Shown piece after piece: positions 1 through 53,645 of a stretch of 64,000 nt of DNA; positions within the stretch are counted from its first letter, which is position 1; each line of letters starts with the position of its first letter. The translations under genes were made by a program, and so were the position numbers. The notes beneath the pieces were generated by a model. That model worked only from the letters and a program-made list of their open reading frames with translations, searched no databases and was not told where the DNA came from. This stretch comes from Pristionchus mayeri (Eukaryota > Nematoda > Chromadorea > Rhabditida > Neodiplogasteridae): contig BTRK01000005.1 in the NCBI GenBank assembly GCA_036245805.1, positions 42,953,216 through 43,017,215 of the forward strand. Direction: 5' to 3'.

Positions 1-75
1 ACACTCACCAAGTACTACGTGTGGGCACATTTAGGAGGAATTCGATTTTTGGCCTAATGCCAAGCATATGTTCAC
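1..75. repeat. End of the 52431-53645 fold-back element, left-arm copy
   Basis: This is the reverse complement of about 52440-52513, the outer TIR of the fold-back element in the right flank. Related TIR sequence lies at 14741-14840 and 53530-53640. The shared core reads ATATGCTTGGC.CTAGGCC followed by CCTCCTAAATGTGC in the other orientation. Confidence 0.7.
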
Positions 76-169
76 TGACTGAAAAAGTCTCTCATAAACT
101 GTTTGCTAATGTTAATGTGTTTCCGGAAAATATATCCCAGAAATTAACCCTTTTCAGTCTAGTGTTGCA

Positions 170-600
170 TTGTTGATACACTCTCCTCGATTAGACCTGA
201 TAAAATACCAATGAAGCCAGACTTTGCGTGTTTGTTGAATTTCTCTTCTTGTCCGCAGAAGAACGAGGACAAGGAAGACCACGCGAGAGATGGAGAAATG
301 ACATCACACGGAGAAAAGGCGAACGTTGGTGGAGCCTTACAGATGAAGAATGGAACTCTTAAAGCCCAGATCAGCGCTAATAGCGACCCCTGATAAATTC
401 TGTTCTGTTCTGTTCTGTCCTCCGTTAGCAAGAGGTTTTTTTTCTCAGCAATTCTGCGGATCTTCCTCCAGTTCTCTTGACTTATTTTTGAACATGCTAC
501 TTCTATTCATTTTCGATTTATTTTCCTTATTCTTCACCAATATTGCTGTATTATTTTTGTTTGTGCATATGTCCCTCATCACTTGTCTTCCGTTAGCAAG
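170..600. repeat. Dispersed repeat copy A, interrupted by a non-LTR 3' end
   Basis: The core GACCTGATA...GCCAGACTTTGC around 195-230 and the later stretch AATTCTGCGGATCTTCC...CTCTTGA near 450-482 match two consecutive parts of the uninterrupted copy at 25200-25490. About 170 bp of foreign sequence (about 246-420) sit between them. The motif CCGTTAGCAAGAGG occurs at about 422-435 and again at about 590-603. Confidence 0.6.
246..420 (+). pseudogene. 5'-truncated non-LTR retrotransposon 3' end (RTE/Jockey-like)
   Basis: The frame ending in TAA at 360-362 reads GQGRPRERWRNDI, then a tryptophan-rich tail (GERWW, EEWNS). This resembles the GRP..RW.DD...W signature at the C-terminus of many RTE/Jockey-type reverse transcriptase ORFs. 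It is followed within 40 bp by a (TTCTG)n array at about 398-417, a typical simple-repeat 3' tail. Only about 35 codons remain and no RT domain is visible. The family assignment rests on this short motif. Mirror copy: about 52094-52268. Confidence 0.45.
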
Positions 601-652
601 AGGTTGTGTGGGAAGGGCGACGAATGGTTGGGGTCACATGAATATCAAGTAG

Positions 653-657
653 GAAGT
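653..657. repeat. BEL target-site duplication GAAGT, left side
   Basis: GAAGT lies immediately before the 5' LTR and again immediately after the 3' LTR (9220-9224). A 5-bp duplication is the usual size for LTR elements, and it fixes both LTR boundaries. Confidence 0.85.
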
Positions 658-1388
658 TATAGCGAAATGTCACTTCGCTACTACAATTCATTCATAAAAA
701 AATCAAAATAAATAATCATTCCAAAAAAAAAATAATATATTCATTTTACGATTCACTCTCCATAACGCAGTCATACTGTAGCCAAGTTCGCCGCGGCCTC
801 TCGGCGCCTTTTTTCTTCCCTTCTATTTATTTGAACTTTCCCGCGTTCCTCGAAGCCATTCCAATATGTTCCGCCTTCATGAGCGTCATAAAAACGGCCG
901 CGACTCGCGATGATTTTCTTTTTCAGGTGAACGAATCTCGGCGCAGCTCACGTCGCTTTTACGTCGCTTTCTTTTTCTTCTTCAACCATTCACTAGGCTC
1001 ACTTGCCTAATTCTCATCATCATTGCATTGCTTTACTTGCGTGCGGTCACACCTTTCACTCGTTCCATCCACCTTTTCCCATTGTCATCATTTCATCACT
1101 CAGGACGATTCCGCGAGTCGTTCGGGTATCATCAACAGCACTCCTCCCATCCACTCACTGACGACCTCCACAAGGCGTCGGGTATCCAAGGATTCAAGAC
1201 CTCATAAAGGTACTTCAATCTTTCTCAATCTTTTTCCAACCAATCAATAGTCACGTAAAAACCCCATTCCTTTCTTGTGATCTACCATTTACTTCGTGTT
1301 TCCCTTGTGAATTAAAGTAAATAAATATATTTTATTATCACCCCTTTTGCCTTTGCCTCACACCACAAAGACACGAAAATTGTCTACA
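658..1388 (+). repeat. BEL 5' LTR
   Basis: Direct repeat of 8488-9219. It starts TATAGCGAAATGTCAC (AGCGAA...TTCGCT can form a hairpin) and ends GTCTACA, so its ends are TA...CA and not the common TG...CA. A candidate poly(A) signal AATAAA lies at 1320-1325. Short reading frames inside it (such as 1023-1250) recur in all four LTR copies and have no recognisable product. Confidence 0.92.
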
Positions 1389-1400
1389 TGGTGCATCGGC
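1389..1400 (+). promoter_or_regulatory. Primer-binding site, tRNA-Gly
   Basis: TGGTGCATCGGC starts at the first base after the 5' LTR. It is complementary to a tRNA 3' end GCCGATGCA plus CCA. From memory this matches nematode tRNA-Gly(GCC), so minus-strand synthesis would be primed by tRNA-Gly. Confidence 0.8.
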
Positions 1401-1554
1401 TTTTTTAAAACAATCCTAGCCATAATTATCAAGTCCCGCGTGGCCCAAAAGCATTCTACCACCAGTCACTCCATTTTCGCTCAGAAGCATTCCCAAACCA
1501 ATCACAATTGATTTTGCAATCCCTTCCTCTGTCAGCACCCGCCGCTCTCGCAAA

Positions 1555-4044
1555 ATGGGTGACGTTTTCGTGTCAGATTTCACTAATGACTACGACAAAC
1601 TCTATTCCCTTCTCGATGAGCTCAAGCCACTGTTCGACAAAATCAATCTCGAAACATCGAGACTGCCCCAGATTTCGAATCTAAACGATATCCAGTCACT
1701 GAGCTCCCACATGGTCACTACCATTGGTGACGCCGAAGAATTCTTCACCAGTTATGCAGGAATCGCCGAGTCGATCGAAGCGAGAATCGAAGAAATGGCC
1801 AAGAAGATCGAGGACAATGAGAAAGCTGGAAAGGAGAAGAACCATTACGACCAAGTAAAGAAGGCCGAGCATGGATCGAGCGGTCTTCCGATGGGCGCAG
1901 TCAGTTTGGCTTCTCTTCTCAAAAGTAAAGAGTCGAAATACGAAAATACCCTCACTAGATCGATACGACGCGTTCGCGCAGTGTCGATGCTAGGAAATTT
2001 CGTTGACCAGGGCGCATCTCTCAATCAGCCTTCCCCTCAGTCTTTCGCACCTACGCCCAATCAAAACGCATTCACCGAGCAATCATCCCCTCCCTCCCCT
2101 GTCACTCAGTCTCATCCCGCGCATGTCAGCCAGGGGGGAAATAGTAGTATCATCGACAGCCGTTCACTTACTGCTGTTCCCTTCCCGCCAGCAACCGGCA
2201 CTCGGGAATCAACTCTCACTCATATTTCATCACCCAATGCAATTATTTCGTCATCGACGGAATCACCTCCCCCACTCGATTCAGTGTCGCATAGGCCTAG
2301 CCTCTCACTTCCACCCATCAGACTCGAGACTTTCGACGGCAGTGATATTACTCGATGGTCCGCCTTCAAGTATCAGATTGAGTCCCTCATTATCAACCAG
2401 CCACACTTGTCAGAAGTAGAAAAGATTTTCCACATTCGCTCTAATCTGAAAGGAGAAGCGCACTCTCTAATCGCATCACTTCCCGTTCAGCCTAGCTTCC
2501 TCACCAAAATGCTCACTAGACTAGAATCAGAATACGATCGGTACGACCTCACTCAAGCTCGTCTAATGCAATCACTTCGTTCCATTCGAGCCAAATCATC
2601 CCGAGTAGACGACCAACTGTCAGCTGTCCGTGCCATGATCAACATAGCTCACTCCATTCATGGAGACTCGGGAATCAATGCTCTTTGTATGCAACAACAA
2701 CTTGCCGAAAGCATCCACCCCAAGTTTATTACACTTGTCACTCGTAAAAAACCTGATTCACTTGTGTCCGCTCTCGAACTAATTGAGGATAAATTGCGCG
2801 AAGAGCGAGAAGATTCAGTCATGATCAGCGCTTTCACTTCTAACTCTGTTGTCAACTCACAATACAATAATGGCTCACTGCCTTCCAAGGCGCACGCGTC
2901 GACAGCGCCTCACACTAAGTCGTCCCACTCCTCAGCCTCCCACTCCTCATCTACACCCAACCACTCTAGGAAGATTCCACTGTGTGTTTTCTGTGGCACA
3001 CATCAGTACAGTGGAGAATGCGCTCGTGTCACTTCAATCAGGGAAAAGAAAGAGATTCTCAAGAACAAATCACTCTGCTTTTCTTGCTTCTCTCCCAACC
3101 ACTCTTCTGATGCCTGCTACAAATCGTGTCCACAGTGCAAGGCAAAGCATCACAAGTCCCTGTGTACAAAGCAATCTACTCCTAACCAGTCTGGCGTCCA
3201 TTCATTAGCTACTAGTCCATGTATTTGGCTCAACACTAAACTGTTCACAGCACCCGTCATGCTAGCAAACACGATCGCGCTCAGAAGTTCCTACGCGAAC
3301 GCACTACTAGATGCTGGTGCACAAGTATCTCTCATCTCTCGAAGACTAGTCAATCAGCTTCACCTCAAACCAATCGACCAGTTACATGCTTCCATCACAG
3401 GAGTAATGATTGCCGATCAGAATTTCCTTCCCTCTAGCCACGAAATAGTACAATTTGAGCTCATCACTGACCATTGTAGGGAAGTCATCAAAGCTATTGT
3501 TCATGATACTGACACCATCACTCACTCGATACATCATCAGCCATTGTCTGAAGCTGATTTAGATGTAATCAGGACAACTCTCACTACCATCCCAGTTCAT
3601 TTCACTAAGTCGACTGTTAGTCCCGATTTACTTCTCGGTGTCGGAGACACACTCAAGTTACTGGAGAACTCAACATCGACGACACTTCCTGGAGGATACC
3701 GCTTGATCCAATCTGTAATCGGTCCCCTCGTCGCCGGTTCCGAGAACCTGACGCCACCACTTCCGACCAAGAAGAATAAGGCAGCTTCTACAAATCAGAG
3801 TCAGGGTCTTCCCCCAACAAACCCCTCTGATCACCAAGTCACTCCTTCACTCACAGTCGCCTCAGTCACCACGGTCAATCATTCAGTAGATCAATTAGCT
3901 GAGCGTTTCCTTTCTGTGGATCCGATCTCGCGCATATACGAGACCACAGAGAAGGAGGAGCGAAAACTGGCTGACGAATTAGTGACGAAACATTCGACAC
4001 CGTCCAGTCTCACGATGACGGATACTATGTTCAGTATGCCATGA
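1555..4044 (+). CDS. gag: BEL gag-protease polyprotein, 829 aa
   Basis: Structural protein fused to an aspartic protease, expected to form cytoplasmic virus-like particles and process the polyprotein. Residues 1-120 include acidic/charged helical segments and about 160-255 are Ser/Pro-rich. From about 255 (LETFDGSDITRW) it resembles the DUF1759 gag region. Three zinc-type motifs lie at about 475-540: CVFCGTHQYSGEC, CFSCFSPNHSSDAC (canonical CX2CX4HX4C) and CPQCKAKHHKSLC. The protease core LLDAGAQVSLIS is near residue 584, with D-A-G in place of D-S/T-G. ATG follows an acceptor-like CTGTCAG (ending 1535). The ORF ends in an ATGA overlap with the RT frame. BEL proteins usually run on into RT, so a frame change here is notable. 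Confidence 0.9.
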   Translation: MGDVFVSDFTNDYDKLYSLLDELKPLFDKINLETSRLPQISNLNDIQSLSSHMVTTIGDAEEFFTSYAGIAESIEARIEEMAKKIEDNEKAGKEKNHYDQVKKAEHGSSGLPMGAVSLASLLKSKESKYENTLTRSIRRVRAVSMLGNFVDQGASLNQPSPQSFAPTPNQNAFTEQSSPPSPVTQSHPAHVSQGGNSSIIDSRSLTAVPFPPATGTRESTLTHISSPNAIISSSTESPPPLDSVSHRPSLSLPPIRLETFDGSDITRWSAFKYQIESLIINQPHLSEVEKIFHIRSNLKGEAHSLIASLPVQPSFLTKMLTRLESEYDRYDLTQARLMQSLRSIRAKSSRVDDQLSAVRAMINIAHSIHGDSGINALCMQQQLAESIHPKFITLVTRKKPDSLVSALELIEDKLREEREDSVMISAFTSNSVVNSQYNNGSLPSKAHASTAPHTKSSHSSASHSSSTPNHSRKIPLCVFCGTHQYSGECARVTSIREKKEILKNKSLCFSCFSPNHSSDACYKSCPQCKAKHHKSLCTKQSTPNQSGVHSLATSPCIWLNTKLFTAPVMLANTIALRSSYANALLDAGAQVSLISRRLVNQLHLKPIDQLHASITGVMIADQNFLPSSHEIVQFELITDHCREVIKAIVHDTDTITHSIHHQPLSEADLDVIRTTLTTIPVHFTKSTVSPDLLLGVGDTLKLLENSTSTTLPGGYRLIQSVIGPLVAGSENLTPPLPTKKNKAASTNQSQGLPPTNPSDHQVTPSLTVASVTTVNHSVDQLAERFLSVDPISRIYETTEKEERKLADELVTKHSTPSSLTMTDTMFSMP

Positions 4045-5192
4045 AGCCTGATGCCAAGGATACATTGCCAGATAATTACAATCTGGCAGTCTCCCGTCTT
4101 TCCTCCACACAGCGCAATCTGTCCACTGACAGAAACCTGCTGCTCTTTTACGATTCTGTAATCCAAGACCAGATTTCATTAGGGCAAGTAGAAGCAGTCG
4201 ACCCATCTGACACTAGTGGTATCATACACTATCTTGCTCATCAAGCAGTCCTTCGACCAGACAAACCAACCACTCCACTGCGCATAGTCTATTATGATGC
4301 TTCAGCCCATCTCAAAAACAAACCATCACTCAACGACATGATCTACCCTGGACCAAATGACCTGGAAATGATCCCGTCCCTCATCATTCGTGCCAGACTC
4401 AGGCCATTTCTCATCGTTGCCGACGTTGAGAAAGCATTCCTGCAAGTGAAACTGTGTCCTTCACAGAGAAATATGCTCAGATTCCTATGGCTGAAAGACA
4501 TCGACAAGCCTGTCTCCCCCAACAACATTCTTGTCCTACGCTTTTGCGTAACGCCTTTCGGTGTCAACCAGAGCCCGTGCCTTCTTAACAAGGTAATCAA
4601 CCATCACATCCAGCACGAGGGCAAGAAATGCGACCCCCACTTAGTCCATCAACTTGTTTCCAATCTTTACGTAGACAACATCATCATCATTGCTGACAAC
4701 CCATCTTCCCTCATGTACACACAGTCGAAACACCTGTTCCAATCGATGTCCATGAACCTTAGAGATTACTCATCCAATTCATCCTCATTCATGTCGTGTG
4801 TGCCAGATTCCGATCAATCAAAGGATAGTAACCAGAAACTTCTCGGTCTCATTTGGAACACTGAGGAAGATTCTCTCTCTATCAATATTCCCGTCTCTAC
4901 CAAGAGAGAAAAAGAGTCGAAGAGATCCATGCTACCGTATCGAGTCGAAGTCGAAGAGATCCATGCTACCGTACCGTATCGAGTTCATACGATCCACTCG
5001 GGCTTCTCAACCCACTCCTTCTCCCTCCTCGACTCACAGTCCAAGGTCTATGGAACAGTCCAATCAAGTGGGATGAACCAGTCGACCAGAGCACTAGGGA
5101 ATCCTTCCACAATCAGATTTCAGACCTCGAACAGTTCTCACTCCCAATTGATCGATTTACGCATATCTCTGAATCAAATGACATCACTCTAG
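4041..5192 (+). CDS. pol: BEL reverse transcriptase part, broken downstream
   Basis: RNA-dependent DNA polymerase of the element. The frame is open from 3975 and overlaps gag-protease by 70 nt in the -1 frame. The conserved BEL stretch before the ATG (HDDGYYVQYA) shows that translation should enter from upstream. Motif A reads VADVEKAFLQV (near residue 125). The catalytic box reads YVDN near residue 210, not YVDD. At about 4926-4985 the sequence AAGAGATCCATGCT is duplicated, adding about 35 bp and shifting the frame, so the last 80 or so codons here are out-of-frame sequence. A 3-bp insertion near 4291 doubles a Tyr. The mirror copy lacks both changes and stays open. Confidence 0.85.
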   Translation: MKPDAKDTLPDNYNLAVSRLSSTQRNLSTDRNLLLFYDSVIQDQISLGQVEAVDPSDTSGIIHYLAHQAVLRPDKPTTPLRIVYYDASAHLKNKPSLNDMIYPGPNDLEMIPSLIIRARLRPFLIVADVEKAFLQVKLCPSQRNMLRFLWLKDIDKPVSPNNILVLRFCVTPFGVNQSPCLLNKVINHHIQHEGKKCDPHLVHQLVSNLYVDNIIIIADNPSSLMYTQSKHLFQSMSMNLRDYSSNSSSFMSCVPDSDQSKDSNQKLLGLIWNTEEDSLSINIPVSTKREKESKRSMLPYRVEVEEIHATVPYRVHTIHSGFSTHSFSLLDSQSKVYGTVQSSGMNQSTRALGNPSTIRFQTSNSSHSQLIDLRISLNQMTSL

Positions 5193-5701
5193 TTGCATTC
5201 TGCGATGCTTCAAAATCAGCAATGGCAGCCTCGGTCTATAGTTACGTGTCTGGTCAAAAACCTACAATTATCATTTCCAAAACTAGGCTAGCCCCCATCA
5301 ACTCCAACAATTTGCTTCAGTTCACGGTGGAGACTATCCGAAAAGAGTTTCCCACAAAGCAAATCCATGTATACTCTTTCTCGGATTCAGCTGTGACACT
5401 TCACTGGTGTAGACCTGGGTTCAACAAGCCAGTCGGTGTATTCGTTTCCAATAGAGTCAAGCTCATTCATTCGATCAGAGACGCCCTTACGTCTGATAAT
5501 CTTCTCTCTTACCACTCTCCGAGACATGTCAGAGGCGAAGAGAACCCTGCCGACCATGCAACTCGTGGCCTTTCCTCATCAGACATGAACGATCCTTCGC
5601 ATCAATGGTGGATTGGCCCTCCGTGGTTATCATCCAATCCTTCTGAATGGCCTGACACGAATCTATCCGAACTTCAGTACCCGGATATCCATTCCCAGTA
5701 G
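4985..5701 (+). CDS. pol: BEL RT connection and RNase H part, displaced frame
   Basis: Continuation of pol in another frame after the duplication near 4926-4985. It holds the BEL stretch YDPLGLLNPLLLPP as seen in the mirror copy, then an RNase H-like domain with CDASKSAMAASVYSY, FSDSAVTLHW and ENPADHATRG, whose Asp residues fit the metal-binding set. The frame ends at TAG 5699-5701. An ATG at 5222 is internal and is not a real start. Without frame restoration this copy cannot make a complete RT-RNase H. Confidence 0.75.
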   Translation, partial: SYDPLGLLNPLLLPPRLTVQGLWNSPIKWDEPVDQSTRESFHNQISDLEQFSLPIDRFTHISESNDITLVAFCDASKSAMAASVYSYVSGQKPTIIISKTRLAPINSNNLLQFTVETIRKEFPTKQIHVYSFSDSAVTLHWCRPGFNKPVGVFVSNRVKLIHSIRDALTSDNLLSYHSPRHVRGEENPADHATRGLSSSDMNDPSHQWWIGPPWLSSNPSEWPDTNLSELQYPDIHSQ

Positions 5702-6711
5702 TGATCAGCGCTCAGGTAATTGAGACACCACCAGAGTCTCCCATCAATCTCCCTCGCCATTCGAGCCTCAAAAGGGCTATCAACGTGGCAGCGCTAATTT
5801 ATAGATTCATCGCCCGATGCGCACATAAGACCAGTAATGCAAGCATTCTCGAGAAACTGAGTCACCTCCCCCAACCCACTGCATCTACTCTGGATGCACG
5901 GGAGAAGAGATTCGCTTTCAATCGCCTCATTTTTTTCAGTCAGCAATCGCTCAGTGACTCAGTCATCAAGAAGATGTCTCTAATCAATGATCCATCCACT
6001 GGATTGTTAAGAGTCAGCACTCGAGTTGCTAACTCGAATCAACATGAGGAATTCAAATCCCCCATCTTCATCCCCACTTCTCCTGATAGCACTCTAGCTC
6101 GACTTCTCATTAGGGACATTCACTCTTCCACCCATGCTGGTGTAGACGTAGTCCTCAATACACTCAAGAGTAAGTTCTTGATTCCTCGAGCCAGACCACT
6201 CGCCAAATCAACTCTCAGACAATGTGTCCCATGCAGGAGAACGAACAACCTGCCATTCACTTACCCTCAGACTCCACCACTCCCAACTGATAGAGTCACT
6301 CAAAGTCTCCCATTCGCACATTGCGGAATCGATTATGCAGGCCCATTCCACTTGAAAGGCGATTCAAAAGTCTGGATAGTAGTTATCACTTGTTTTTCCA
6401 CCAGACTTACCCACTTGGAAGTTGTCGATTCACTACTTCCGTCTGCATTCATTCTAGCATTCCGTCGATTCTGTTCACGTAGAGGCACACCCCAGAGAGT
6501 CACCTCTGATAAGGCCACGACTTTCAGACTAGCCAGTACACTACTGTGCAAATCAGAGATCAGCCCCGACATCAATACTCTCTTCTCATCTCTAGGAATC
6601 ACCTGGTCTTTCACCACAGCACATTCTCCATGGAAGGGTGGCATCTATGAGAGACTCATTAAAATAATCAAGGATTCTTTCTCTCGATCTATTCGAAACC
6701 ATCACTTGTGA
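5656..6711 (+). CDS. pol: BEL integrase, N-terminal and core
   Basis: Strand-transfer enzyme that inserts the cDNA. The frame is open from 5656, overlaps RNase H by 46 nt in the -1 frame, and has no convincing ATG start. A zinc-binding H-H-C-C set is formed by IHSSTHAGVD and RQCVPCRR. The catalytic core has D in CGIDYAGPF, D in VTSDKATTF and E in WKGGIYERL. The frame ends at TGA 6709-6711 while the conserved C-terminal part continues in the +1 frame from 6668. The core is intact here, unlike in the mirror copy. Confidence 0.85.
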   Translation, partial: HESIRTSVPGYPFPVVISAQVIETPPESPINLPRHSSLKRAINVAALIYRFIARCAHKTSNASILEKLSHLPQPTASTLDAREKRFAFNRLIFFSQQSLSDSVIKKMSLINDPSTGLLRVSTRVANSNQHEEFKSPIFIPTSPDSTLARLLIRDIHSSTHAGVDVVLNTLKSKFLIPRARPLAKSTLRQCVPCRRTNNLPFTYPQTPPLPTDRVTQSLPFAHCGIDYAGPFHLKGDSKVWIVVITCFSTRLTHLEVVDSLLPSAFILAFRRFCSRRGTPQRVTSDKATTFRLASTLLCKSEISPDINTLFSSLGITWSFTTAHSPWKGGIYERLIKIIKDSFSRSIRNHHL

Positions 6712-7300
6712 AGTCGAGGCACTTCTCAATTCTCGACCCCTCACTTACGTTTCATCAGACGATATTCATTCATTCCATGGACCTAGTCTAAGACCAATTG
6801 ATCTCATTCTGCCCCAGTCATTCCTAGGATGCTCACTCTCCCTCACTAATAAGGAGGACTACATCCCTCCAGAAGAAGAGAATTCGAGTAGGGAGAATGC
6901 AGTCAAATTGCTGAAAAGATCAATCAATATCGTTGATTCATTCTGGCAAAAGTGGCATACTGAGTACCGCGCTACCCTCAGAGATTCGTTCAATAAGTCT
7001 TCAGACACTCTCCAGTCAAACCGATCATCCAGTTCCAACCCCAAAATCGGCTCCATTGTCTTAGTCATGGATGAGAGTGGTAACACCCCGAGATCAGCGT
7101 GGAAAATGGCAAAAATCCTCACTCTCACAGATTCCTCTGCGACCCTGCGCTCACTTGCTGGCAGAATCATTGAGAGACCACTCAACTTCCTTATTCCACT
7201 TGAAATTCATTCATCTGAAGAGTCACACCCGGTGGGCCCTGTAGCACAAACATCTCATCCAATGGTCACTCGATCAAAGAACGCACGCCGAAATCACTAG
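6668..7300 (+). CDS. pol: BEL integrase C-terminal part, shifted frame
   Basis: Reads ETITCEVEALLNSRPLTY near 6695, the conserved BEL segment that follows the catalytic Glu region. It continues through a basic/aromatic stretch (SFWQKWHTEYR) and a C-terminal domain with GSIVLVMDE and SAWKMAKIL, typical of the BEL integrase tail. It stops at 7298-7300. The +1 change relative to the core is shared by both arms, so it predates the palindrome. Confidence 0.8.
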   Translation, partial: SRILSLDLFETITCEVEALLNSRPLTYVSSDDIHSFHGPSLRPIDLILPQSFLGCSLSLTNKEDYIPPEEENSSRENAVKLLKRSINIVDSFWQKWHTEYRATLRDSFNKSSDTLQSNRSSSSNPKIGSIVLVMDESGNTPRSAWKMAKILTLTDSSATLRSLAGRIIERPLNFLIPLEIHSSEESHPVGPVAQTSHPMVTRSKNARRNH

Positions 7301-7450
7301 GATTCATCTCCCTTTCCCATTTCCCATTCCCCCCCCCCCCCGAGGTTTCCACTGTGAATTCACACTGTAATTATCAAATCATTTATCTTTCAATCATTCT
7401 CTCATTTCATCAATCCCATTCAGCCTCTCGCGAACGCAGAGAAAAGCAAG
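7301..7450 (+). other. Linker between pol and the third ORF
   Basis: Contains a 13-C tract at 7329-7341 and, at 7414-7423, an acceptor-like ATCCCATTCAG that could serve cis- or spliced-leader trans-splicing of the downstream ORF. The mirror tract is 10 G. Confidence 0.5.
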
Positions 7451-8234
7451 ATGGACGAGGAAGCCGAGCTTCTCGCCGTTTCCTACCAGGATGACTTCAC
7501 CACTAGGGTAATCATTGCACATGATTTTTCATATTCTCCAAACCAATCTAGTCATCCTTTCATAATCACTGCGATTCTCAAAATCTTATGACGAATCAAT
7601 AGTATCTCAATTTCATATCAAATCACTTATCATTTATCCTCAGGATTACATCGAGTCGATGTACACTCACCTCACTCAAGAGGTCAACGATGTCAAGGAG
7701 GACGTCAGTGATCTCAGAGCACTCGTCTCCAATGAGCTCAAGGCTATCAAAGACGACCTTGGATCCATGACGCTCACTCTATCTGCCATTCTGACCAAGA
7801 TCTCCCAGCCTTCTCCCATTACCCAGTCGGTATCTACCCCCAGAACTCCCCGAGTTATCATTGCCCCTCGCTCTCAGTATCGTACCCCCAATTCAATTGA
7901 CCGTCCCAGTCACAAAAGAGATCGTAGTCGATCTCCAATTGTACCTCGCACTACTCCCAATTTCAAGACGTCCCACACTTCTCAGATCGTCAAATGCACT
8001 TTCTGTTCCTCTGTCTGTCATCTTTCTCGCAATTGCACTATTGTTACCAGTGTCTCCACCCGTATCTCCCTCATGTCACCCATCCAGTGCCATAGATGTT
8101 TCCGTCACATCGGTCCCACCCATAGCGCCTCATGCGAACCCGAAATCTGCACACGCGAATGCTCGGACGAGCTCGGTCGTGGTCTCCGCCACATGCAGTT
8201 CTTCTGCCCTCGCAACCCCGACCTCCAGCCCTAA
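7451..8234 (+). CDS. BEL third ORF, two-exon zinc-knuckle protein
   Basis: Exon 1 is 7451-7507 (19 codons, starting MDEEAELLAVSY), then donor AGG|GTAATC, an intron 7508-7643 (136 nt) ending ATCCTCAG, and exon 2 at 7644-8234. Splicing joins whole codons, giving about 215 aa; unspliced reading stops inside the intron. The N-terminal part of exon 2 (EVNDVKEDVSDLRALV) is probably coiled coil. A Ser/Arg/Pro-rich middle follows. CTFCSSVCHLSRNC is a canonical CX2CX4HX4C knuckle and CHRCFRHIGPTHSASC is a second Cys/His cluster. It resembles a small gag/nucleocapsid-like protein; function unknown. It has no membrane segment, so it is not an envelope protein. Confidence 0.65.
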
Positions 8235-8487
8235 CAGGCAATGAAGAAATCGACCACCCCGATTGGTGCCTGGAGTTACCCCTATTAGTATTTCGGCCAT
8301 ATTGGCATATGCTTGTACCACCTGTTGTCACCTAATCGTTTTTCGTGCTAACTTGTTCTAGTTCGTTGACTGTTTTACGTTTTCCACTTTGCTACTCTAG
8401 CTTCATAAAGCTCGACCAATTAGTCTCATTCATTCATCACACAACAATCAGAACACTTTCCTTCGTTCTCTTTCGCCTCCCTCCCAG
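8235..8487 (+). other. BEL 3' untranslated stretch
   Basis: No gene seen. The bases before the 3' LTR are pyrimidine-rich (TTCTCTTTCGCCTCCCTCCCAG), where a purine tract for plus-strand priming would be expected. Confidence 0.6.
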
Positions 8488-9219
8488 TATAGCGAAATGT
8501 CACTTCGCTACTACAATTCATTCATAAAATAATCAAAATAAATAATCATTCCAAAAAAAAAATAATATATTCATTTTACGATTCACTCTCCATAACGCAG
8601 TCATACTGTAGCCAAGTTCGCCGCGGCCTCTCGGCGCCTTTTTTCTTCCCTTCTATTTATTTGAACTTTCCCGCGTTCCTCGAAGCCATTCCAATATGTT
8701 CCGCCTTCATGAGCGTCATAAAAACGGCCGCGACTCGCGATGATTTTCTTTTTCTGGTGAACGAATCTCGGCGAAGCTCACGTCGCTTTTACGTCGCTTT
8801 CTTTTTCTTCTTCAACCATTCACTAGGCTCACTTGCCTAATTCTCATCATCATTGCATTGCTTTACTTGCGTGCGGTCACACCTTTCACTCGTTCCATCC
8901 ACCTTTTCCCATTGTCATCATTTCATCACTCAGGACGATTCCGCGAGTCGTTCGGGTATCATCAACAGCACTCCTCCCATCCACTCACTGACGACCTCCA
9001 CAAGGCGTCGGGTATCCAAGGATTCAAGACCTCATATAGGTACTTCAATCTTTCTCAATCTTTTTCCAACCAATCAATAGTCACGTAAACAACCCCATTC
9101 CTTTCTTGTGATCTACCATTTACTTCGTGTTTCCCTTGTGAATTAAAGTAAATAAATATATTTTATTATCACCCCTTTTGCCTTTGCCTCACACCACAAA
9201 GACACGAAAATTGTCTACA
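8488..9219 (+). repeat. BEL 3' LTR
   Basis: 732 bp, direct repeat of 658-1388. Differences include TTTTTCTGGTG versus TTTTTCAGGTG, CGAAGCTC versus CGCAGCTC, CATATAGG versus CATAAAGG and a 1-bp indel. AATAAA lies at 9151-9156. It is followed by target duplication GAAGT (9220-9224). Confidence 0.92.
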
Positions 9220-9224
9220 GAAGT

Positions 9225-10484: not shown

Positions 10485-10624
10485 GTTAAAGGAGGAGTAA
10501 ATGCAAACGCGCGCCCGGTTGGAAAATGTTTCACCAAGGAACGCGCTCTCTTCAAGTCGCGTGCTATCTCGCCCTCTTCCCAGAGCTTTCCCTGATCTGG
10601 CTCCCTGCCAACTAGCTATAACTA

Positions 10625-41764: not shown

Positions 41765-41904
41765 TACTAGGGGATACTATTTGAAGTGCGCATTGAACAC
41801 CTCGAGTGGTATACTAAAACGTGTTATAACATGCATTAACAGGTTGATAGGACTGATGAAATATTCTAGTTCAAACTTTGTCAAAGTACTTTCTCCGCAC
41901 CCTG
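40676..41904 (-). mobile_element. DD37D mariner-like element, right-arm copy
   Basis: 1229 bp with TIRs CAGGGTGCGGAGAAA and TA flanks, inverted copy of 10625-11853. Confidence 0.88.
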
Positions 41905-44048: not shown

Positions 44049-44301
44049 CTGGGAGGGAGGCGAAAGAGAACGAAGGAAAGTGTTCTGATTGTTGTGTGAT
44101 GAATGAATGAGACTAATTGGTCGAGCTTTATGAAGCTAGAGTAGCAAAGTGGAAAACGTAAAACAGTCAACGAACTAGAACAAGTTAGCACGAAAAACGA
44201 TTAGGTGACAACAGGTGGTACAAGCATATGCCAATATGGCCGAAATACTAATAGGGGTAACTCCAGGCACCAATCGGGGTGGTCGATTTCTTCATTGCCT
44301 G

Positions 44302-45085: not shown

Positions 45086-45232
45086 CTTGCTTTTCTCTGC
45101 GTTCGCGAGAGGCTGAATGGGATTGATGAAATGAGAGAATGATTGAAAGATAAATGATTTGATAATTACAGTGTGAATTCACAGTGGAAACCTCGGGGGG
45201 GGGGAATGGGAAATGGGAAAGGGAGATGAATC

Positions 45233-45866
45233 CTAGTGATTTCGGCGTGCGTTCTTTGATCGAGTGACCATTGGATGAGATGTTTGTGCTACAGGGCCCA
45301 CCGGGTGTGACTCTTCAGATGAATGAATTTCAAGTGGAATAAGGAAGTTGAGTGGTCTCTCAATGATTCTGCCAGCAAGTGAGCGCAGGGTCGCAGAGGA
45401 ATCTGTGAGAGTGAGGATTTTTGCCATTTTCCACGCTGATCTCGGGGTGTTACCACTCTCATCCATGACTAAGACAATGGAGCCGATTTTGGGGGTGGAA
45501 CTGGATGATCGGTTTGACTGGAGAGTGTCTGAAGACTTATTGAACGAATCTCTGAGGGTAGCGCGGTACTCAGTATGCCACTTTTGCCAGAATGAATCAA
45601 CGATATTGATTGATCTTTTCAGCAATTTGACTGCATTCTCCCTACTCGAATTCTCTTCTTCTGGAGGGATGTAGTCCTCCTTATTAGTGAGGGAGAGTGA
45701 GCATCCTAGGAATGACTGGGGCAGAATGAGATCAATTGGTCTTAGACTAGGTCCATGGAATGAATGAATATCGTCTGATGAAACGTAAGTGAGGGGTCGA
45801 GAATTGAGAAGTGCCTCGACTTCACAAGTGATGGTTTCGAATAGATCGAGAGAAAGAATCCTTGAT
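45233..45866 (-). CDS. pol: BEL integrase C-terminal part, right-arm copy
   Basis: Inverted copy of 6668-7300, carrying STPKIG in place of SNPKIG. Separated from the core by the same +1 shift. Confidence 0.78.
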
Positions 45867-46068
45867 TATTTTAATGAGTCTCTCATAGATGCCACCCTTC
45901 CATGGAGAATGTGCTGTGGTGAAAGACCAGGTGATTCCTAGAGATGAGAAGAGAGTATTGATGTCGGGGCTGATCTCTGATTTGCACAGTAGTGTACTGG
46001 CTAGTCTGAAAGTCGTGGCCTTATCAGAGGTGACTCTCTGGGGTGTGCCTCTACGTATCGACGGAATG

Positions 46069-46887
46069 CTAGAATCGACGGAATGCTAGAATGAATGCAG
46101 ACGGAAGTAGTGAATCGACAACTTCCAAGTGGGTAAGTCTGGTGGAAAAACAAGTGATAACTACTATCCAGACTTTTGAATCGCCTTTCAAGTGGAATGG
46201 GCCTGCATAATCGATTCCGCAATGTGCGAATGGGAGACTTTGAGTGACTCTATCAGTTGGGAGTGGTGGAGTCTGAGGGTAAGTGAATGGCAGGTTGTTC
46301 GTTCTCCTGCATGGGACACATTGTCTGAGAGTTGATTTGGCGAGTGGTCTGGCTCGAGGAATCAAGAACTTACTCTTGAGTGTATTGAGGACTACGTCTA
46401 CACCAGCATGGGTGGAAGAGTGAATGTCCCTAATGAGAAGTCGAGCTAGAGTGCTATCAGGAGAAGTGGGGATGAAGATGGGGGATTTGAATTCCTCATG
46501 TTGATTCGAGTTAGCAACTCGAGTGCTGACTCTTAACAATCCAGTGGATGGATCATTGATTAGAGACATCTTCTTGATGACTGAGTCACTGAGCGATTGC
46601 TGACTGAAAAAAATGAGGCGATTGAAAGCGAATCTCTTCTCCCGTGCATCCAGAGTAGATGCAGTGGGTTGGGGGAGGTGACTCAGTTTCTCGAGAATGC
46701 TTGCATTACTGGTCTTATGTGCGCATCGGGCGATGAATCTATAAATTAGCGCTGCCACATTGATAGCCCTTTTGAGGCTCGAATGGCGAGGGAGATTGAT
46801 GGGAGACTCTGGTGGTGTCTCAATTACCTGAGCGCTGATCACTACTGGGAATGGATATCCGGGTACTGAAGTTCGGATAGATTCGTG
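46069..46887 (-). CDS. pol: BEL integrase, truncated in the core
   Basis: Same zinc-binding and first catalytic Asp motifs as the left copy. After AFILAFRRF the frame is lost because ATCGACGGAATGCT is repeated in place of GAAC (about 46055-46080, net about +10 bp). The second Asp and the Glu therefore lie out of frame (45880-46060). The left copy is intact here. Confidence 0.82.
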   Translation of the reverse strand, partial: HESIRTSVPGYPFPVVISAQVIETPPESPINLPRHSSLKRAINVAALIYRFIARCAHKTSNASILEKLSHLPQPTASTLDAREKRFAFNRLIFFSQQSLSDSVIKKMSLINDPSTGLLRVSTRVANSNQHEEFKSPIFIPTSPDSTLARLLIRDIHSSTHAGVDVVLNTLKSKFLIPRARPLAKSTLRQCVPCRRTNNLPFTYPQTPPLPTDRVTQSLPFAHCGIDYAGPFHLKGDSKVWIVVITCFSTRLTHLEVVDSLLPSAFILAFRRF

Positions 46888-48464
46888 TCAGGCCATTCAG
46901 AAGGATTGGATGATAACCACGGAGGGCCAATCCACCATTGATGCGAAGGATCGTTCATGTCTGATGAGGAAAGGCCACGAGTTGCATGGTCGGCAGGGTT
47001 CTCTTCGCCTCTGACATGTCTCGGTGAGTGGTAAGAGAGAAGATTATCAGACGTAAGGGCGTCTCTGATCGAATGAATGAGCTTGACTCTATTGGAAACG
47101 AATACACCGACTGGCTTGTTGAACCCAGGTCTACACCAGTGAAGTGTCACAGCTGAATCCGAGAAAGAGTATACATGGATTTGCTTTGTGGGAAACTCTT
47201 TTCGGATAGTCTCCACCGTGAACTGAAGCAAATTGTTGGAGTTGATGGGGGCTAGCCTAGTTTTGGAAATGATAATTGTAGGTTTTTGACCAGACACGTA
47301 ACTATAGACCGAGGCTGCCATTGCTGATTTTGAAGCATCGCAGAATGCAACTAGAGTGATGTCATTTGATTCAGAGATATGCGTAAATCGATCAATTGGG
47401 AGTGAGAACTGTTCGAGGTCTGAAATCTGATTGTGGAAGGATTCCCTAGTGCTCTGGTCGACTGGTTCATCCCACTTGATTGGACTGTTCCATAGACCTT
47501 GGACTGTGAGTCGAGGAGGGAGAAGGAGTGGGTTGAGAAGCCCGAGTGGATCGTATGAACTCGATACGGTACTGAGCATGGATCTCTTCGACTCTTTTTC
47601 TCTCTTGGTAGAGACGGGAATATTGATAGAGAGAGAATCTTCCTCAGTGTTCCAAATGAGACCGAGAAGTTTCTGGTTACTATCCTTTGATTGATCGGAA
47701 TCTGGCACACACGACATGAATGAGGATGAATTGGATGAGTAATCTCTAAGGTTCATGGACATCGATTGGAACAGGTGTTTCGACTGTGTGTACATGAGGG
47801 AAGATGGGTTGTCAGCAATGATGATGATGTTGTCTACGTAAAGATTGGAAACAAGTTGATGGACTAAGTGGGGGTCGCATTTCTTGCCCTCGTGCTGGAT
47901 GTGATGGTTGATTACCTTGTTAAGAAGGCACGGGCTCTGGTTGACACCGAAAGGCGTTACGCAAAAGCGTAGGACAAGAATGTTGTTGGGGGAGACAGGC
48001 TTGTCGATGTCTTTCAGCCATAGGAATCTGAGCATATTTCTCTGTGAAGGACACAGTTTCACTTGCAGGAATGCTTTCTCAACGTCGGCAACGATGAGAA
48101 ATGGCCTGAGTCTGGCACGAATGATGAGGGACGGGATCATTTCCAGGTCATTTGGTCCAGGGTAGATCATGTCGTTGAGTGATGGTTTGTTTTTGAGATG
48201 GGCTGAAGCATCATAGACTATGCGCAGTGGAGTGGTTGGTTTGTCTGGTCGAAGGACTGCTTGATGAGCAAGATAGTGTATGATACCACTAGTGTCAGAT
48301 GGGTCGACTGCTTCTACTTGCCCTAATGAAATCTGGTCTTGGATTACAGAATCGTAAAAGAGCAGCAGGTTTCTGTCAGTGGACAGATTGCGCTGTGTGG
48401 AGGAAAGACGGGAGACTGCCAGATTGTAATTATCTGGCAATGTATCCTTGGCATCAGGCTTCAT
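46842..48464 (-). CDS. pol: BEL RT-RNase H, 540 aa, uninterrupted
   Basis: Single frame from the ATGA overlap with gag-protease to the stop before integrase. RT motif A VADVEKAFLQV is near residue 125 and YVDN near 209. The connection segment is YDPLGLLNPLLLPP, and RNase H has CDASKSAMAA near 375, FSDSAVTLHW and ENPADHATRG. The upstream frame is open to about 48530 and overlaps gag-protease by 70 nt in -1. The Asn at the fourth position of YVDN is shared with the left copy, so it is not a recent error. Confidence 0.88.
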   Translation of the reverse strand: MKPDAKDTLPDNYNLAVSRLSSTQRNLSTDRNLLLFYDSVIQDQISLGQVEAVDPSDTSGIIHYLAHQAVLRPDKPTTPLRIVYDASAHLKNKPSLNDMIYPGPNDLEMIPSLIIRARLRPFLIVADVEKAFLQVKLCPSQRNMLRFLWLKDIDKPVSPNNILVLRFCVTPFGVNQSPCLLNKVINHHIQHEGKKCDPHLVHQLVSNLYVDNIIIIADNPSSLMYTQSKHLFQSMSMNLRDYSSNSSSFMSCVPDSDQSKDSNQKLLGLIWNTEEDSLSINIPVSTKREKESKRSMLSTVSSSYDPLGLLNPLLLPPRLTVQGLWNSPIKWDEPVDQSTRESFHNQISDLEQFSLPIDRFTHISESNDITLVAFCDASKSAMAASVYSYVSGQKPTIIISKTRLAPINSNNLLQFTVETIRKEFPTKQIHVYSFSDSAVTLHWCRPGFNKPVGVFVSNRVKLIHSIRDALTSDNLLSYHSPRHVRGEENPADHATRGLSSSDMNDPSHQWWIGPPWLSSNPSEWPDTNLSELQYPDIHSQ

Positions 48465-50959
48465 GGCATACTGAACATAGTATCCGTCATCGTGAGACTG
48501 GACGGTGTCGAATGTTTCGTCACTAATTCGTCAGCCAGTTTTCGCTCCTCCTTCTCTGTGGTCTCGTATATGCGCGAGATCGGATCCACAGAAAGGAAAC
48601 GCTCAGCTAATTGATCTACTGAATGATTGACCGTGGTGACTGAGGCGACTGTGAGTGAAGGAGTGACTTGGTGATCAGAGGGGTTTGTTGGGGGAAGACC
48701 CTGACTCTGATTTGTAGAAGCTGCCTTATTCTTCTTGGTCGGAAGTGGTGGCGTCAGGTTCTCGGAACCGGCGACGAGGGGACCGATTACAGATTGGATC
48801 AAGCGGTATCCTCCAGGAAGTGTCGTCGATGTTGAGTTCTCCAGTAACTTGAGTGTGTCTCCGACACCGAGAAGTAAATCGGGACTAACAGTCGACTTAG
48901 TGAAATGAACTGGGATGGTAGTGAGAGTTGTCCTGATTACATCTAAATCAGCTTCAGACAATGGCTGATGATGTATCGAGTGAGTGATGGTGTCAGTATC
49001 ATGAACAATAGCTTTGATGACTTCCCTACAATGGTCAGTGATGAGCTCAAATTGTACTATTTCGTGGCTAGAGGGAAGGAAATTCTGATCGGCAATCATT
49101 ACTCCTGTGATGGAAGCATGTAACTGGTCGATTGGTTTGAGGTGAAGCTGATTGACTAGTCTTCGAGAGATGAGAGATACTTGTGCACCAGCATCTAGTA
49201 GTGCGTTCGCGTAGGAACTTCTGAGCGCGATCGTGTTTGCTAGCATGACGGGTGCTGTGAACAGTCTAGTGTTGAGCCAAATACATGGACTAGTAGCTAA
49301 TGAATGGACGCCAGACTGGTTAGGAGTAGATTGCTTTGTACACAGGGACTTGTGATGCTTTGCCTTGCACTGTGGACACGATTTGTAGCAGGCATCAGAA
49401 GAGTGGTTGGGAGAGAAGCAAGAAAAGCAGAGTGATTTGTTCTTGAGAATCTCTTTCTTTTCCCTGATTGAAGTGACACGAGCGCATTCTCCACTGTACT
49501 GATGTGTGCCACAGAAAACACACAGTGGAATCTTCCTAGAGTGGTTGGGTGTAGATGAGGAGTGGGAGGCTGAGGAGTGGGACGACTTAGTGTGAGGCGC
49601 TGTCGACGCGTGCGCCTTGGAAGGCAGTGAGCCATTATTGTATTGTGAGTTGACAACAGAGTTTGAACGCTGAGAAGTGAAAGCGCTGATCATGACTGAA
49701 TCTTCTCGCTCTTCGCGCAATTTATCCTCAATTAGTTCGAGAGCGGACACAAGTGAATCAGGTTTTTTACGAGTGACAAGTGTAATAAACTTGGGGTGGA
49801 TGCTTTCGGCAAGTTGTTGTTGCATACAAAGAGCATTGATTCCCGAGTCTCCATGAATGGAGTGAGCTATGTTGATCATGGCACGGACAGCTGACAGTTG
49901 GTCGTCTACTCGGGATGATTTGGCTCGAATGGAACGAAGTGATTGCATTAGACGAGCTTGAGTGAGGTCGTACCGATCGTATTCTGATTCTAGTCTAGTG
50001 AGCATTTTGGTGAGGAAGCTAGGCTGAACGGGAAGTGATGCGATTAGAAAGTGCGCTTCTCCTTTCAGATTAGAGCGAATGTGGAAAATCTTTTCTACTT
50101 CTGACAAGTGTGGCTGGTTGATAATGAGGGACTCAATCTGATACTTGAAGGCGGACCATCGAGTAATATCACTGCCGTCGAAAGTCTCGAGTCTGATGGG
50201 TGGAAGTGAGAGGCTAGGCCTATGCGACACTGAATCGAGTGGGGGAGGTGATTCCGTCGATGACGAAATAATTGCATTGGGTGATGAAATATGAGTGAGA
50301 GTTGATTCCCGAGTGCCGGTTGCTGGCGGGAAGGGAACAGCAGTAAGTGAACGGCTGTCGATGATACTACTATTTCCCCCCTGGCTGACATGCGCGGGAT
50401 GAGACTGAGTGACAGGGGAGGGAGGGGATGATTGCTCGGTGAATGCGTTTTGATTGGGCGTAGGTGCGAAAGACTGAGGGGAAGGCTGATTGAGAGATGC
50501 GCCCTGGTCAACGAAATTTCCTAGCATCGACACTGCGCGAACGCGTCGTATCGATCTAGTGAGGGTATTTTCGTATTTCGACTCTTTACTTTTGAGAAGA
50601 GAAGCCAAACTGACTGCGCCCATCGGAAGACCGCTCGATCCATGCTCGGCCTTCTTTACTTGGTCGTAATGGTTCTTCTCCTTTCCAGCTTTCTCATTGT
50701 CCTCGATCTTCTTGGCCATTTCTTCGATTCTCGCTTCGATCGACTCGGCGATTCCTGCATAACTGGTGATGATTTCTTCGGCGTCACCAATGGTAGTGAC
50801 CATGTGGGAGCTCAGTGACTGGATATCGTTTAGATTCGAAATCTGGGGCAGTCTCGATGTTTTGAGATTGATTTTGTCGAACAGTGGCTTGAGCTCATCG
50901 AGAAGGGAATAGAGTTTGTCGTAGTCATTAGTGAAATCTGACACGAAAACGTCACCCAT
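48461..50959 (-). CDS. gag: BEL gag-protease, 832 aa, right-arm copy
   Basis: Same architecture as 1555-4044. Differences seen: SQRSNS versus SNS (9 bp longer here), EEII versus EEFF, NLKTS versus NLETS, EAHFL versus EAHSL and NTRLF versus NTKLF. All differences keep the frame open. Confidence 0.9.
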   Translation of the reverse strand: MGDVFVSDFTNDYDKLYSLLDELKPLFDKINLKTSRLPQISNLNDIQSLSSHMVTTIGDAEEIITSYAGIAESIEARIEEMAKKIEDNEKAGKEKNHYDQVKKAEHGSSGLPMGAVSLASLLKSKESKYENTLTRSIRRVRAVSMLGNFVDQGASLNQPSPQSFAPTPNQNAFTEQSSPPSPVTQSHPAHVSQGGNSSIIDSRSLTAVPFPPATGTRESTLTHISSPNAIISSSTESPPPLDSVSHRPSLSLPPIRLETFDGSDITRWSAFKYQIESLIINQPHLSEVEKIFHIRSNLKGEAHFLIASLPVQPSFLTKMLTRLESEYDRYDLTQARLMQSLRSIRAKSSRVDDQLSAVRAMINIAHSIHGDSGINALCMQQQLAESIHPKFITLVTRKKPDSLVSALELIEDKLREEREDSVMISAFTSQRSNSVVNSQYNNGSLPSKAHASTAPHTKSSHSSASHSSSTPNHSRKIPLCVFCGTHQYSGECARVTSIREKKEILKNKSLCFSCFSPNHSSDACYKSCPQCKAKHHKSLCTKQSTPNQSGVHSLATSPCIWLNTRLFTAPVMLANTIALRSSYANALLDAGAQVSLISRRLVNQLHLKPIDQLHASITGVMIADQNFLPSSHEIVQFELITDHCREVIKAIVHDTDTITHSIHHQPLSEADLDVIRTTLTTIPVHFTKSTVSPDLLLGVGDTLKLLENSTSTTLPGGYRLIQSVIGPLVAGSENLTPPLPTKKNKAASTNQSQGLPPTNPSDHQVTPSLTVASVTTVNHSVDQLAERFLSVDPISRIYETTEKEERKLADELVTKHSTPSSLTMTDTMFSMP

Positions 50960-51113
50960 TTTGCGAGAGCGGCGGGTGCTGACAGAGGAAGGGATTGCAA
51001 AATCAATTGTGATTGGTTTGGGAATGCTTCTGAGCGAAAATGGAGTGACTGGTGGTAGAATGCTTTTGGGCCACGCGGGACTTGATAATTATGGCTAGGA
51101 TTGTTTTAAAAAA

Positions 51114-51125
51114 GCCGATGCACCA
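51114..51125 (-). promoter_or_regulatory. Primer-binding site, right-arm BEL
   Basis: GCCGATGCACCA on the plus strand, the complement of the PBS, directly inside the 5' LTR. Confidence 0.8.
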
Positions 51126-51856
51126 TGTAGACAATTTTCGTGTCTTTGTGGTGTGAGGCAAAGGCAAAAGGGGTGATAATAAAATATATTTATTTACTTT
51201 AATTCACAAGGGAAACACGAAGTAAATGGTAGATCACAAGAAAGGAATGGGGTTTTTACGTGACTATTGATTGGTTGGAAAAAGATTGAGAAAGATTGAA
51301 GTACCTTTATGAGGTCTTGAATCCTTGGATACCCGACGCCTTGTGGAGGTCGTCAGTGAGTGGATGGGAGGAGTGCTGTTGATGATACCCGAACGACTCG
51401 CGGAATCGTCCTGAGTGATGAAATGATGACAATGGGAAAAGGTGGATGGAACGAGTGAAAGGTGTGACCGCACGCAAGTAAAGCAATGCAATGATGATGA
51501 GAATTAGGCAAGTGAGCCTAGTGAATGGTTGAAGAAGAAAAAGAAAGCGACGTAAAAGCGACGTGAGCTGCGCCGAGATTCGTTCACCTGAAAAAGAAAA
51601 TCATCGCGAGTCGCGGCCGTTTTTATGACGCTCATGAAGGCGGAACATATTGGAATGGCTTCGAGGAACGCGGGAAAGTTTAAATAAATAGAAGGGAAGA
51701 AAAAAGGCGCCGAGAAGCCGCGGCGAACTTGGCTACAGTATGACTGCGTTATGGAGAGTGAATCGTAAAATGAATATATTATTTTTTTTTTGGAATGATT
51801 ATTTATTTTGATTATTTTATGAATGAATTGTAGTAGCGAAGTGACATTTCGCTATA
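51126..51856 (-). repeat. BEL 5' LTR, right-arm copy
   Basis: 731 bp and shares the 5' LTR-specific variants of the left arm (CCTGAAAAAG, GAGCTGCGCC, CCTTTATGAGG). It has arm-specific substitutions near 51680 and 51716, and carries the 3'-type base in ATAAAATAATC. Confidence 0.92.
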
Positions 51857-52093
51857 ACTTCCTACTTGATATTCATGTGACCCCAACCATTCGTCGCCCT
51901 TCCCACACAACCTCTTGCTAACGGAAGACAAGTGATGAGGGACATATGCACAAACAAAAATAATACAGCAATATTGGTGAAGAATAAGGAAAATAAATCG
52001 AAAATGAATAGAAGTAGCATGTTCAAAAATAAGTCAAGAGAACTGGAGGAAGATCCGCAGAATTGCTGAGAAAAAAAACCTCTTGCTAACGGA

Positions 52094-52268
52094 GGACAGA
52101 ACAGAACAGAACAGAATTTATCAGGGGTCGCTATTAGCGCTGATCTGGGCTTTAAGAGTTCCATTCTTCATCTGTAAGGCTCCACCAACGTTCGCCTTTT
52201 CTCCGTGTGATGTCATTTCTCCATCTCTCGCGTGGTCTTCCTTGTCCTCGTTCTTCTGCGGACAAGAA
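52094..52268 (-). pseudogene. Mirror of the non-LTR 3' end
   Basis: Inverted copy of 246-420, including the (CAGAA)n tail at 52097-52116. Confidence 0.45.
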
Positions 52269-52430
52269 GAGAAATTCAACAAACACGCAAAGTCTGGCTT
52301 CATTGGTATTTTATCAGGTCTAATCGAGGAGAGTGTATCAACAATGCAACACTAGACTGAAAAGGGTTAATTTCTGGGATATATTTTCCGGAAACACATT
52401 AACATTAGCAAACAGTTTATGAGAGACTTT

Positions 52431-53645
52431 TTCAGTCAGTGAACATATGCTTGGCATTAGGCCAAAAATCGAATTCCTCCTAAATGTGCCCACACGTAGT
52501 ACTTGGTGAGTGTAGGACAGCGGTGGCATATTTAGAGATCTAGGTCAAGCGCTGAGAAGTGCATCGAACTTTGCTGGGGAAAATTACGGTATCCAATTTT
52601 CCCTCTTTCGCTCTCGCTTGGAACGGCGCATATCTAGAAAGACTTGCCGTACTCTGCTCATTATCTGACCCACCTTTCATCTCAATTGGATTGAAATCCA
52701 TCGACTTCAAAAAAAAAAAAATTTTAATTTTAGCTCGTTCAGATGGGTGGGTAGATACGTTTTTTATTCCTTTGGATTGTACTGCGGGCTGATAGGTATC
52801 TATTAAAAATTTTAAAGAAAAATAAAAAAATACACTTTTTGAGAAAATTACAAAAATGTAGAAAAAAACTCAGTTCATGATCATGCAACTGCCCTACCGT
52901 AACCCAAGCGAACCCGAGAAAAATGTTCTAGAGGTATGCTACACGCAGTAATCGACGAGGGTAATCTATCACCACCAGTAAAATTTCGATACACATCTTT
53001 GCGCTCCAGCGCGTGAATGATGAATATTATCGAAAAATACGGTAGGTTTTTAGCATCAGCGCTCTTGCGCGCGCGGATGCCTATCGAAATTTCATTGGTG
53101 CTGCAGGTATTCCCACATCGAGTACTGCGTGTAGGATACCTCGAGAACAATTTTCCTCGGGTTCGTTTGGGGTACGGTAGGCCGGTGGCATGATCATGAA
53201 CTGACTTTTTTTCTACATTTTGTCATTTTCTCAAAATTTTTTTATTTTTCTTGAAAATTTTAATAGATAGCTATCAGCCCGCAGTACAAACCAAAGGAAT
53301 AAAAAACGTATCTACCCACCCATCTGACCGAGCTAAAATAAAAATTCAAAATTTAATTTTTTGCCGTCGATGGATTTCAATCCAATTGAGATGGAACTTG
53401 TTTCAGATAATGAGCAGAGTACGGCGAGTCTCTCTAGATATGCGCCGTTCCAAGCGAGAGCGAAAGAGGGAAAATTGGATACCGTAATTTTCCCCAGCAA
53501 AGTTCGATGCACTTCTCAGCGCTTGACCTAGATCACTAAATATGCCACCACTGTGCCACACTCACCGAGTACTGCATGTGGGCACATGTAGGTGGTATTC
53601 GATTTTTGGCGTAATGCCAAGGATCTTCACAAATATGTTCACTGA
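52431..53645. repeat. Fold-back element spanning the outer palindrome edge
   Basis: About 1.2 kb. 52440-53030 pairs with 53640-53050 in inverted orientation (for example GCGCTGAGAAGTGCATCGAA near 52550 and its complement near 53510, and the GGAACGGCGCATATCTAGA block). Arms are diverged (TCTAGGTCAAG conserved; GAATTCCTCC versus GGTGGTATTC). The giant palindrome's visible right arm ends inside its left arm at 52513. No coding capacity. Confidence 0.8.

Follow-up and report, generated by a model that had tools for sequence, protein, structure and literature searches.

In the nematode Pristionchus mayeri, a stretch of 64,000 nucleotides (hereafter the window; C5:42953216-43017215, where C5 is contig BTRK01000005.1 of assembly GCA_036245805.1) carries a large palindrome, P1, and a second palindrome, P2/3, lies just to the left of P1, outside the window. 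Together, the two palindromes make up a 45.9-kb insertion between the halves of one miniature inverted-repeat transposable element (MITE), and are likely to stem from a single event in which the MITE broke and the repair of each broken end copied the flank beside it in fold-back fashion. The assembly searched comprises 290.8 Mb in 73 contigs, with the window lying inside a contig of 50.3 Mb, and the structure was read from the finished assembly sequence alone. Coordinates follow the numbering of the window, negative values lying to its left.

An earlier note on this DNA had described a palindrome of more than 52 kb, with arms of about 26 kb around a 240-bp spacer, in which 1-26150 is mirrored at 26391-52513 with scattered differences. 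Self-BLAST of the assembly sequence reproduces these arms, pairing 1-4945 with 52513-47559 and 4949-26150 with 47593-26391 at 99.5-99.6% identity with gaps counted, and an arm-to-arm MAFFT alignment bears out the scattered differences: over 28,017 aligned columns there are 20 gaps and 41 mismatches, of which 20 are isolated. The full extent of P1 is greater than was described, as the structure is cut by the start of the window: with flanking DNA added, the arms run from -1936 to 26150 (28,087 bp) and from 26391 to 54455 (28,065 bp), giving 56.4 kb in total. The likeness of the arms is far beyond chance, and the longest identical run between them is 1,916 bp. Several of the gaps are complex, with filler that repeats adjacent sequence, and the gaps break different reading frames in the two copies of a long terminal repeat (LTR) retrotransposon carried by the arms. 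When 20700-26150 was used as a query, and the best 40 candidates in the assembly were scored, the two full-length matches were the two arms; the 39 other listed matches were partial repeat matches, each of at most about 650 bp. The spacer of about 240 bp is single copy, as a 242-bp query gave one full-length match, with the remaining matches covering its first ~102 bases only.

The first 102 bp of the P1 spacer match a dispersed fold-back element, on which the earlier note, correct as to the 240 bp, was silent. Full copies of this element are 515-535 bp in length and nearly self-complementary, with ends of the form G6CGGACAATCC.. and ..GGATTGTCCGC6, and 8-bp target-site duplications (TSDs) flank four of the four independent copies fetched (L004-L007, L007 being the same as L008), namely TCTTTCTG, GCATTCGC, AATAATAG and ATATCTTC. 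Terminal inverted repeats, a lack of coding capacity and a target duplication of constant length identify the family as a MITE. The piece in P1 (26150-26251, forward strand, recognised by its matches to the family) is cut at the arm edge, and the remaining 407 bp of the MITE form the end of the P2/3 spacer (-20162 to -19756), in the same orientation. The left piece stops, and the right piece starts, at position 418 of the reference copy L005, so that the two abut; rejoined, they give 509 bp with no gap of more than 1 base at the join relative to full copies. Directly outside the outer end of each piece lies the same octamer, ATTGGCCT, at -20170 to -20163 on the left and at 26252-26259 (forward strand) on the right, as expected from the 8-bp TSDs of the family. 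This octamer occurs nine times in 264 kb on both strands, which puts the odds of its falling on the two expected positions by chance at about 1 in 65,000. Since the pieces abut, share an orientation and carry ATTGGCCT at both outer ends, they are one MITE insertion that has been split and that now has 45,905 bp inside it. The rest of the single-copy P1 spacer (26260-26390, forward strand), delimited by the spacer-query matches, is the original flank of the MITE.

The arms of P2/3 extend from -38616 to -20519 and from -19755 to -5827, on either side of a single-copy spacer of 763 bp. BLAST reports P2/3 as two palindromes because the left copy alone carries a block of 4,389 bp (-27676 to -23288), with TATGC on both sides. 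If the left-flank segment is labelled A, the right-flank segment C, and the 3.9 kb between the inverted copies X, then the observed order is A, rc(A), X, rc(C), C, where rc denotes the reverse complement. In other words, the 45.9 kb between the MITE halves consist of X with an inverted flank copy on either side of it, that of the left flank on its left and that of the right flank on its right. As a whole, X is single copy in the assembly, with two stretches of repeats within it. A long satellite array (-67932 to -56698) is situated just to the left of the palindromes.

The two palindromes have diverged to the same degree. P2/3 shows nine isolated substitutions in 13,677 aligned columns (ten in a second alignment; the raw count of 216 mismatches is inflated by tandem arrays that fail to align), or 0.066%, versus 0.071% (20 of 28,017) for P1 (Fisher p = 1.0). 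Given a Caenorhabditis-like mutation rate of about 2.5e-9 per site per generation, and ignoring conversion, this divergence corresponds to an age of the order of 1e5 generations. One proposal of the earlier note was an inverted duplication whose arms gene conversion had kept alike; the inverted duplication is supported, while conversion may have acted but is not needed. An old palindrome maintained by arm-to-arm conversion, in the manner of the mammalian Y or of Caenorhabditis inverted gene pairs, would account for arms that are 99.9% alike in substitutions, and long-term maintenance of inverted repeats is reported for relatives of C. elegans in the part of that literature drawn on here (PMC1803023). 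It is nevertheless highly unlikely in the present case, as the isolated substitutions in P1 are spread along the arm (6, 4, 1, 3, 4 and 2 in six bins from outer end to centre) with no suggestion of conversion tracts, and the equal divergence of both palindromes fits simple age. Conversion would in any event alter the age of the structure, and not its origin in a split MITE.

The outer edges and junctions indicate which copies are original. A pseudo-exon of glucose-6-phosphate isomerase (PGI) at 54335-54466 (reverse strand), found by Pfam scan and by comparison with the PGI gene, crosses the outer edge of the right P1 arm at 54455, and its splice-acceptor sequence lies outside the arm, an arrangement also seen in the PGI gene, 245 kb distant. 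The left arm breaks off at -1936, within the same pseudo-exon. The pseudo-exon and its acceptor being continuous at one edge and cut at the other, the right arm (26391-54455, forward strand) is judged the original, and the left arm (1-26149 in the window, starting at -1936, reverse strand) its inverted, derived copy. On the other side, the boundary between arm and X at -5827 is spanned by a 64-bp tandem array, of which just the end is present at -38616; thus, the A-X junction is original and the left-flank junction is new. The bases TAC are common to both sides of this new junction (-38617/-38616). From these edges, the original order is read as X'-A-MITE-C-right flank. The PGI gene itself lies on the same contig, and its best-matching proteins, 77% identical, come from Necator, Caenorhabditis auriculariae and Haemonchus (three proteins, strict cut-off); together with COX1, they put the genome among the rhabditid nematodes. 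Around it, PGI exon fragments occur in scrambled order and on both strands (C5:42.948-43.264 Mb), some of them in the outer ends of P1.

These features also bear on whether the structure is real. For instance, the suggestion in the earlier note that two haplotypes had been joined head to head conflicts with outer flanks that are unrelated to each other beyond the two arms, with a PGI pseudo-exon cut at one arm edge only, and with the position of both palindromes inside one split MITE with a common TSD. More generally, an artefact of assembly or library, including one from chimeric fold-back reads, is very unlikely as an explanation: equal match scores elsewhere do hint at a redundant contig pair (C7/C3), but here X is present once, and a comparison of the arms shows 20 isolated substitutions as well as 20 gaps, some with locally duplicated filler.

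Of the alternatives raised in the earlier note, fold-back amplification is supported, in the sense of a fold-back or inverted duplication at a break. We infer the route of repair from the anatomy as follows. A double-strand break would have fallen inside the MITE, which, being nearly self-complementary, might conceivably be a fragile site. Each 3' end would then have folded back onto its own flank, with the loops of 763 and 241 bp staying single copy, or have been fused to the sister chromatid. Copying would have proceeded outward from both ends, covering X and about 14 kb on the left side and 28 kb on the right side, after which a junction at -1937/-1936 would have united the two extended ends. 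The left flank would also have had to lose X separately, at -38617/-38616. Single-copy spacers between inverted arms (240 and 763 bp) are what fold-back predicts, and the native passage of rc(A) into X through the 64-bp array is what run-on copying predicts; these features, along with outward copying from one break point, fit a two-ended fold-back followed by rejoining. No selected function is proposed for the structure, which is read as a repair scar.

Several observations weigh against this route. The inverted microhomology of at least 2 bp expected of a fold-back at the boundary of spacer and inverted arm was not found at either central junction, where it amounts to at most 1 bp. As this is below the range of human fold-backs, end joining, with a sister or another molecule as the partner, is an equally good fit. 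The junction at -38617/-38616 needs an extra deletion of X, and the 4,389-bp block in P2/3 must be a separate insertion or deletion. The left side may also be more complicated than proposed, given that the left flank beside -38617 has perfect matches of 303 bp about 240 kb away, at C5:43154892 and C5:43159916, inside a paralogous region of 1.5 kb with 91% identity. Furthermore, ATTGGCCT is present exactly at the junction between X and the left arm (-1938), for which there is no explanation beyond chance; the right arm already matches six of its eight bases at the corresponding position. This copy was considered as the left TSD of the MITE and dropped, the true left TSD being the one at -20170 beside the MITE terminus.

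The near absence of microhomology at the central junctions is accounted for by the insertion of a rearranged copy, as is the roughly 1 kb missing around a second MITE. Here, a circular or tandem copy of X-A-MITE-C, joined at X/C, would have been opened near its own MITE and end-joined backwards into the broken chromosomal MITE, yielding the same order, rc(A)-X-rc(C), with a native rc(A)-X junction and a new X-rc(C) junction. This is unlikely, because it needs a circle or tandem duplication of which there is no other trace in the assembly searched, as well as breaks near the same MITE on both molecules, and still leaves X missing from the left flank. The MITE is split cleanly, a trace that a stalled fork would leave just as a double-strand break would. 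In fork stalling and template switching or microhomology-mediated break-induced replication (FoSTeS/MMBIR), the fork would have come off its template within the hairpin-prone MITE, replicated the left flank in inverted form, then X, then the right flank in inverted form, and finally continued in the MITE from the very next base. Departure and return without loss of MITE sequence are predicted by this route and are seen, and short or absent microhomology is compatible with it; it is distinctly unlikely all the same, since about 46 kb would have to be copied in two inverted segments from both sides, followed by an exact return. Sister-chromatid fusion on both sides, circular-copy insertion and fork template switching all yield the observed order, so that finished sequence on its own cannot decide among them or tell FoSTeS/MMBIR apart from two-sided fold-back repair. 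Two other candidates were rejected on the order of segments: origin-dependent inverted-repeat amplification (ODIRA) predicts a contiguous inverted segment between direct copies, in place of A, rc(A), X, rc(C), C, and a staggered-break inversion, when worked through, fails to give that order.

The P1 arms themselves consist in part of mobile elements. The LTR retrotransposon occupies 658-9219 in the left arm (forward strand; LTRs at 658-1388 and 8488-9219, flanked by the 5-bp repeat GAAGT) and 43317-51856 in the right arm (reverse strand). It encodes DUF1759, RVT_1, Integrase_H2C2 and DUF5641 domains, a set that we take to indicate the BEL/Pao superfamily. Four differences between its LTRs are common to both arms, and the element therefore predates the duplication. 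Frames for a Tc1/mariner-like transposase (DDE_3) lie at 10753-11881 (forward strand) and are mirrored at 40648-41776. As for host genes, Pfam scanning of the arm apart from its outer 2.6 kb and 9220-10750 recognised none; six-frame scans of 11900-26380 found no Pfam families, although stop-spanning translations may miss short exons. The flank from 52513 to 64000 gave nothing but the PGI exon in the Pfam scan, and scans of the window for Rfam families (gathering thresholds) and tRNAs gave no matches.

Other palindromes were met as by-catch of the match lists, which were not a survey. One, at 199493-209185 in window numbering (within C5:43152500-43162400), has arms of at least 4.78 kb that are 99.94% alike around a 131-bp spacer, and is cut by the end of the fetched stretch. 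Another, at C5:10096000-10103300, was predicted from equal-scoring inverted repeat matches and then confirmed; its arms, at least 3.46 kb long and 99.5% alike, enclose a 274-bp spacer. It belongs to a set of four pairs less than 4 kb apart among the listed matches of one repeat family with at least 31 matches over 600 bp. All four pairs are inverted, with equal or nearly equal scores, and one of them, on C7, may be the same locus as another, on C3. Close direct pairs in other families run counter to an inverted-only rule (C4:1607516/1611929, a tandem set at C5:15.705 Mb, and C5:14977808/14982869). The same inverted pair, with the same scores, is found at C7:261658-264531 and C3:40110717-40113589, hinting at a redundant contig or a duplication. 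In a different setting, three copies of COX1 (C2:44550843-44582507), two of them equal in score and 15,181 bp apart, lie near the end of contig C2 (44,588,995 bp), where the mitochondrial COX1 is 92% identical to a Litoditis cluster; these are tandem mitochondrial DNA, which the assembler may have joined on or which may be inserted in the nucleus.

Most large palindromes, when found, bear no trace of how they were formed. In the present case, the split transposon with its TSD, the cut pseudo-exon and the cut tandem array reveal the original order, distinguish original from copied arms, and point to a single event for two palindromes. If two-sided fold-back repair is real, it offers a directly testable way of forming palindromes in which no chromosome end is lost, and other palindromes in the genome could be read in the same way. 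It is a more doubtful proposition that a broken, probably holocentric chromosome can in general be healed in this manner, so that a single step turns one break in a self-complementary MITE into twin palindromes, and that fold-back MITEs, by breaking repeatedly, are a running source of the many short-spacer palindromes dispersed over the chromosomes of this nematode. The MITE was sought in the spacers of the two other palindromes and was found in neither, which speaks against the MITE as the general cause.

Among the top matches of a literature search, no title concerned twin palindromes flanking one split transposon, which is not proof of absence, and several known systems share part of the anatomy. 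One is the Galileo-type transposon inversions of Drosophila (PMC2775673). In these, a fold-back-type transposon and its target duplications reportedly come to lie at distant breakpoints, as they do here. The Galileo inversions reportedly result from recombination of two copies with each other, whereas the present structure has a single, split copy and duplicated flanks. In human, fold-back inverted duplications have been described whose single-copy (disomic) spacers measure 766-70,466 bp, with 2-8 bp of microhomology at 13 fold-back junctions (PMC3907307, for the cases detailed there). The resemblance lies in an inverted copy beside a short single-copy spacer at the break end, of 763 and 241 bp in P. 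mayeri. In those human cases, however, one end is folded, with a terminal deletion or translocation, whereas here both sides are inverted, the chromosome is continuous, and microhomology does not exceed 1 bp.

In yeast, induced double-strand breaks near inverted repeats lead to inverted duplications in a Pol delta-dependent manner, according to the portion of PMC10622511 relied on here. As in yeast, a break near inverted repeats would prime fold-back synthesis; the yeast product is dicentric, whereas the structure in P. mayeri is an interstitial scar in which the inverted-repeat element is the split MITE itself. The inverted triplications of ODIRA and their derivatives, as outlined in PMC10766186, share long palindromic junctions, low-homology secondary junctions and an interstitial location, but their palindromes centre on the outer ends of the segment and not, as here, on an inner break. 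Finally, the large palindromes of Adineta vaga, Folsomia candida and a few nematodes are likewise blocks of reverse-complement sequence on autosome-like contigs of small invertebrates. In the account of them drawn on here (PMC7953838), these are collinear blocks at the level of genes, with no formation scar described, in contrast to the split MITE in the spacers of the two palindromes of P. mayeri.

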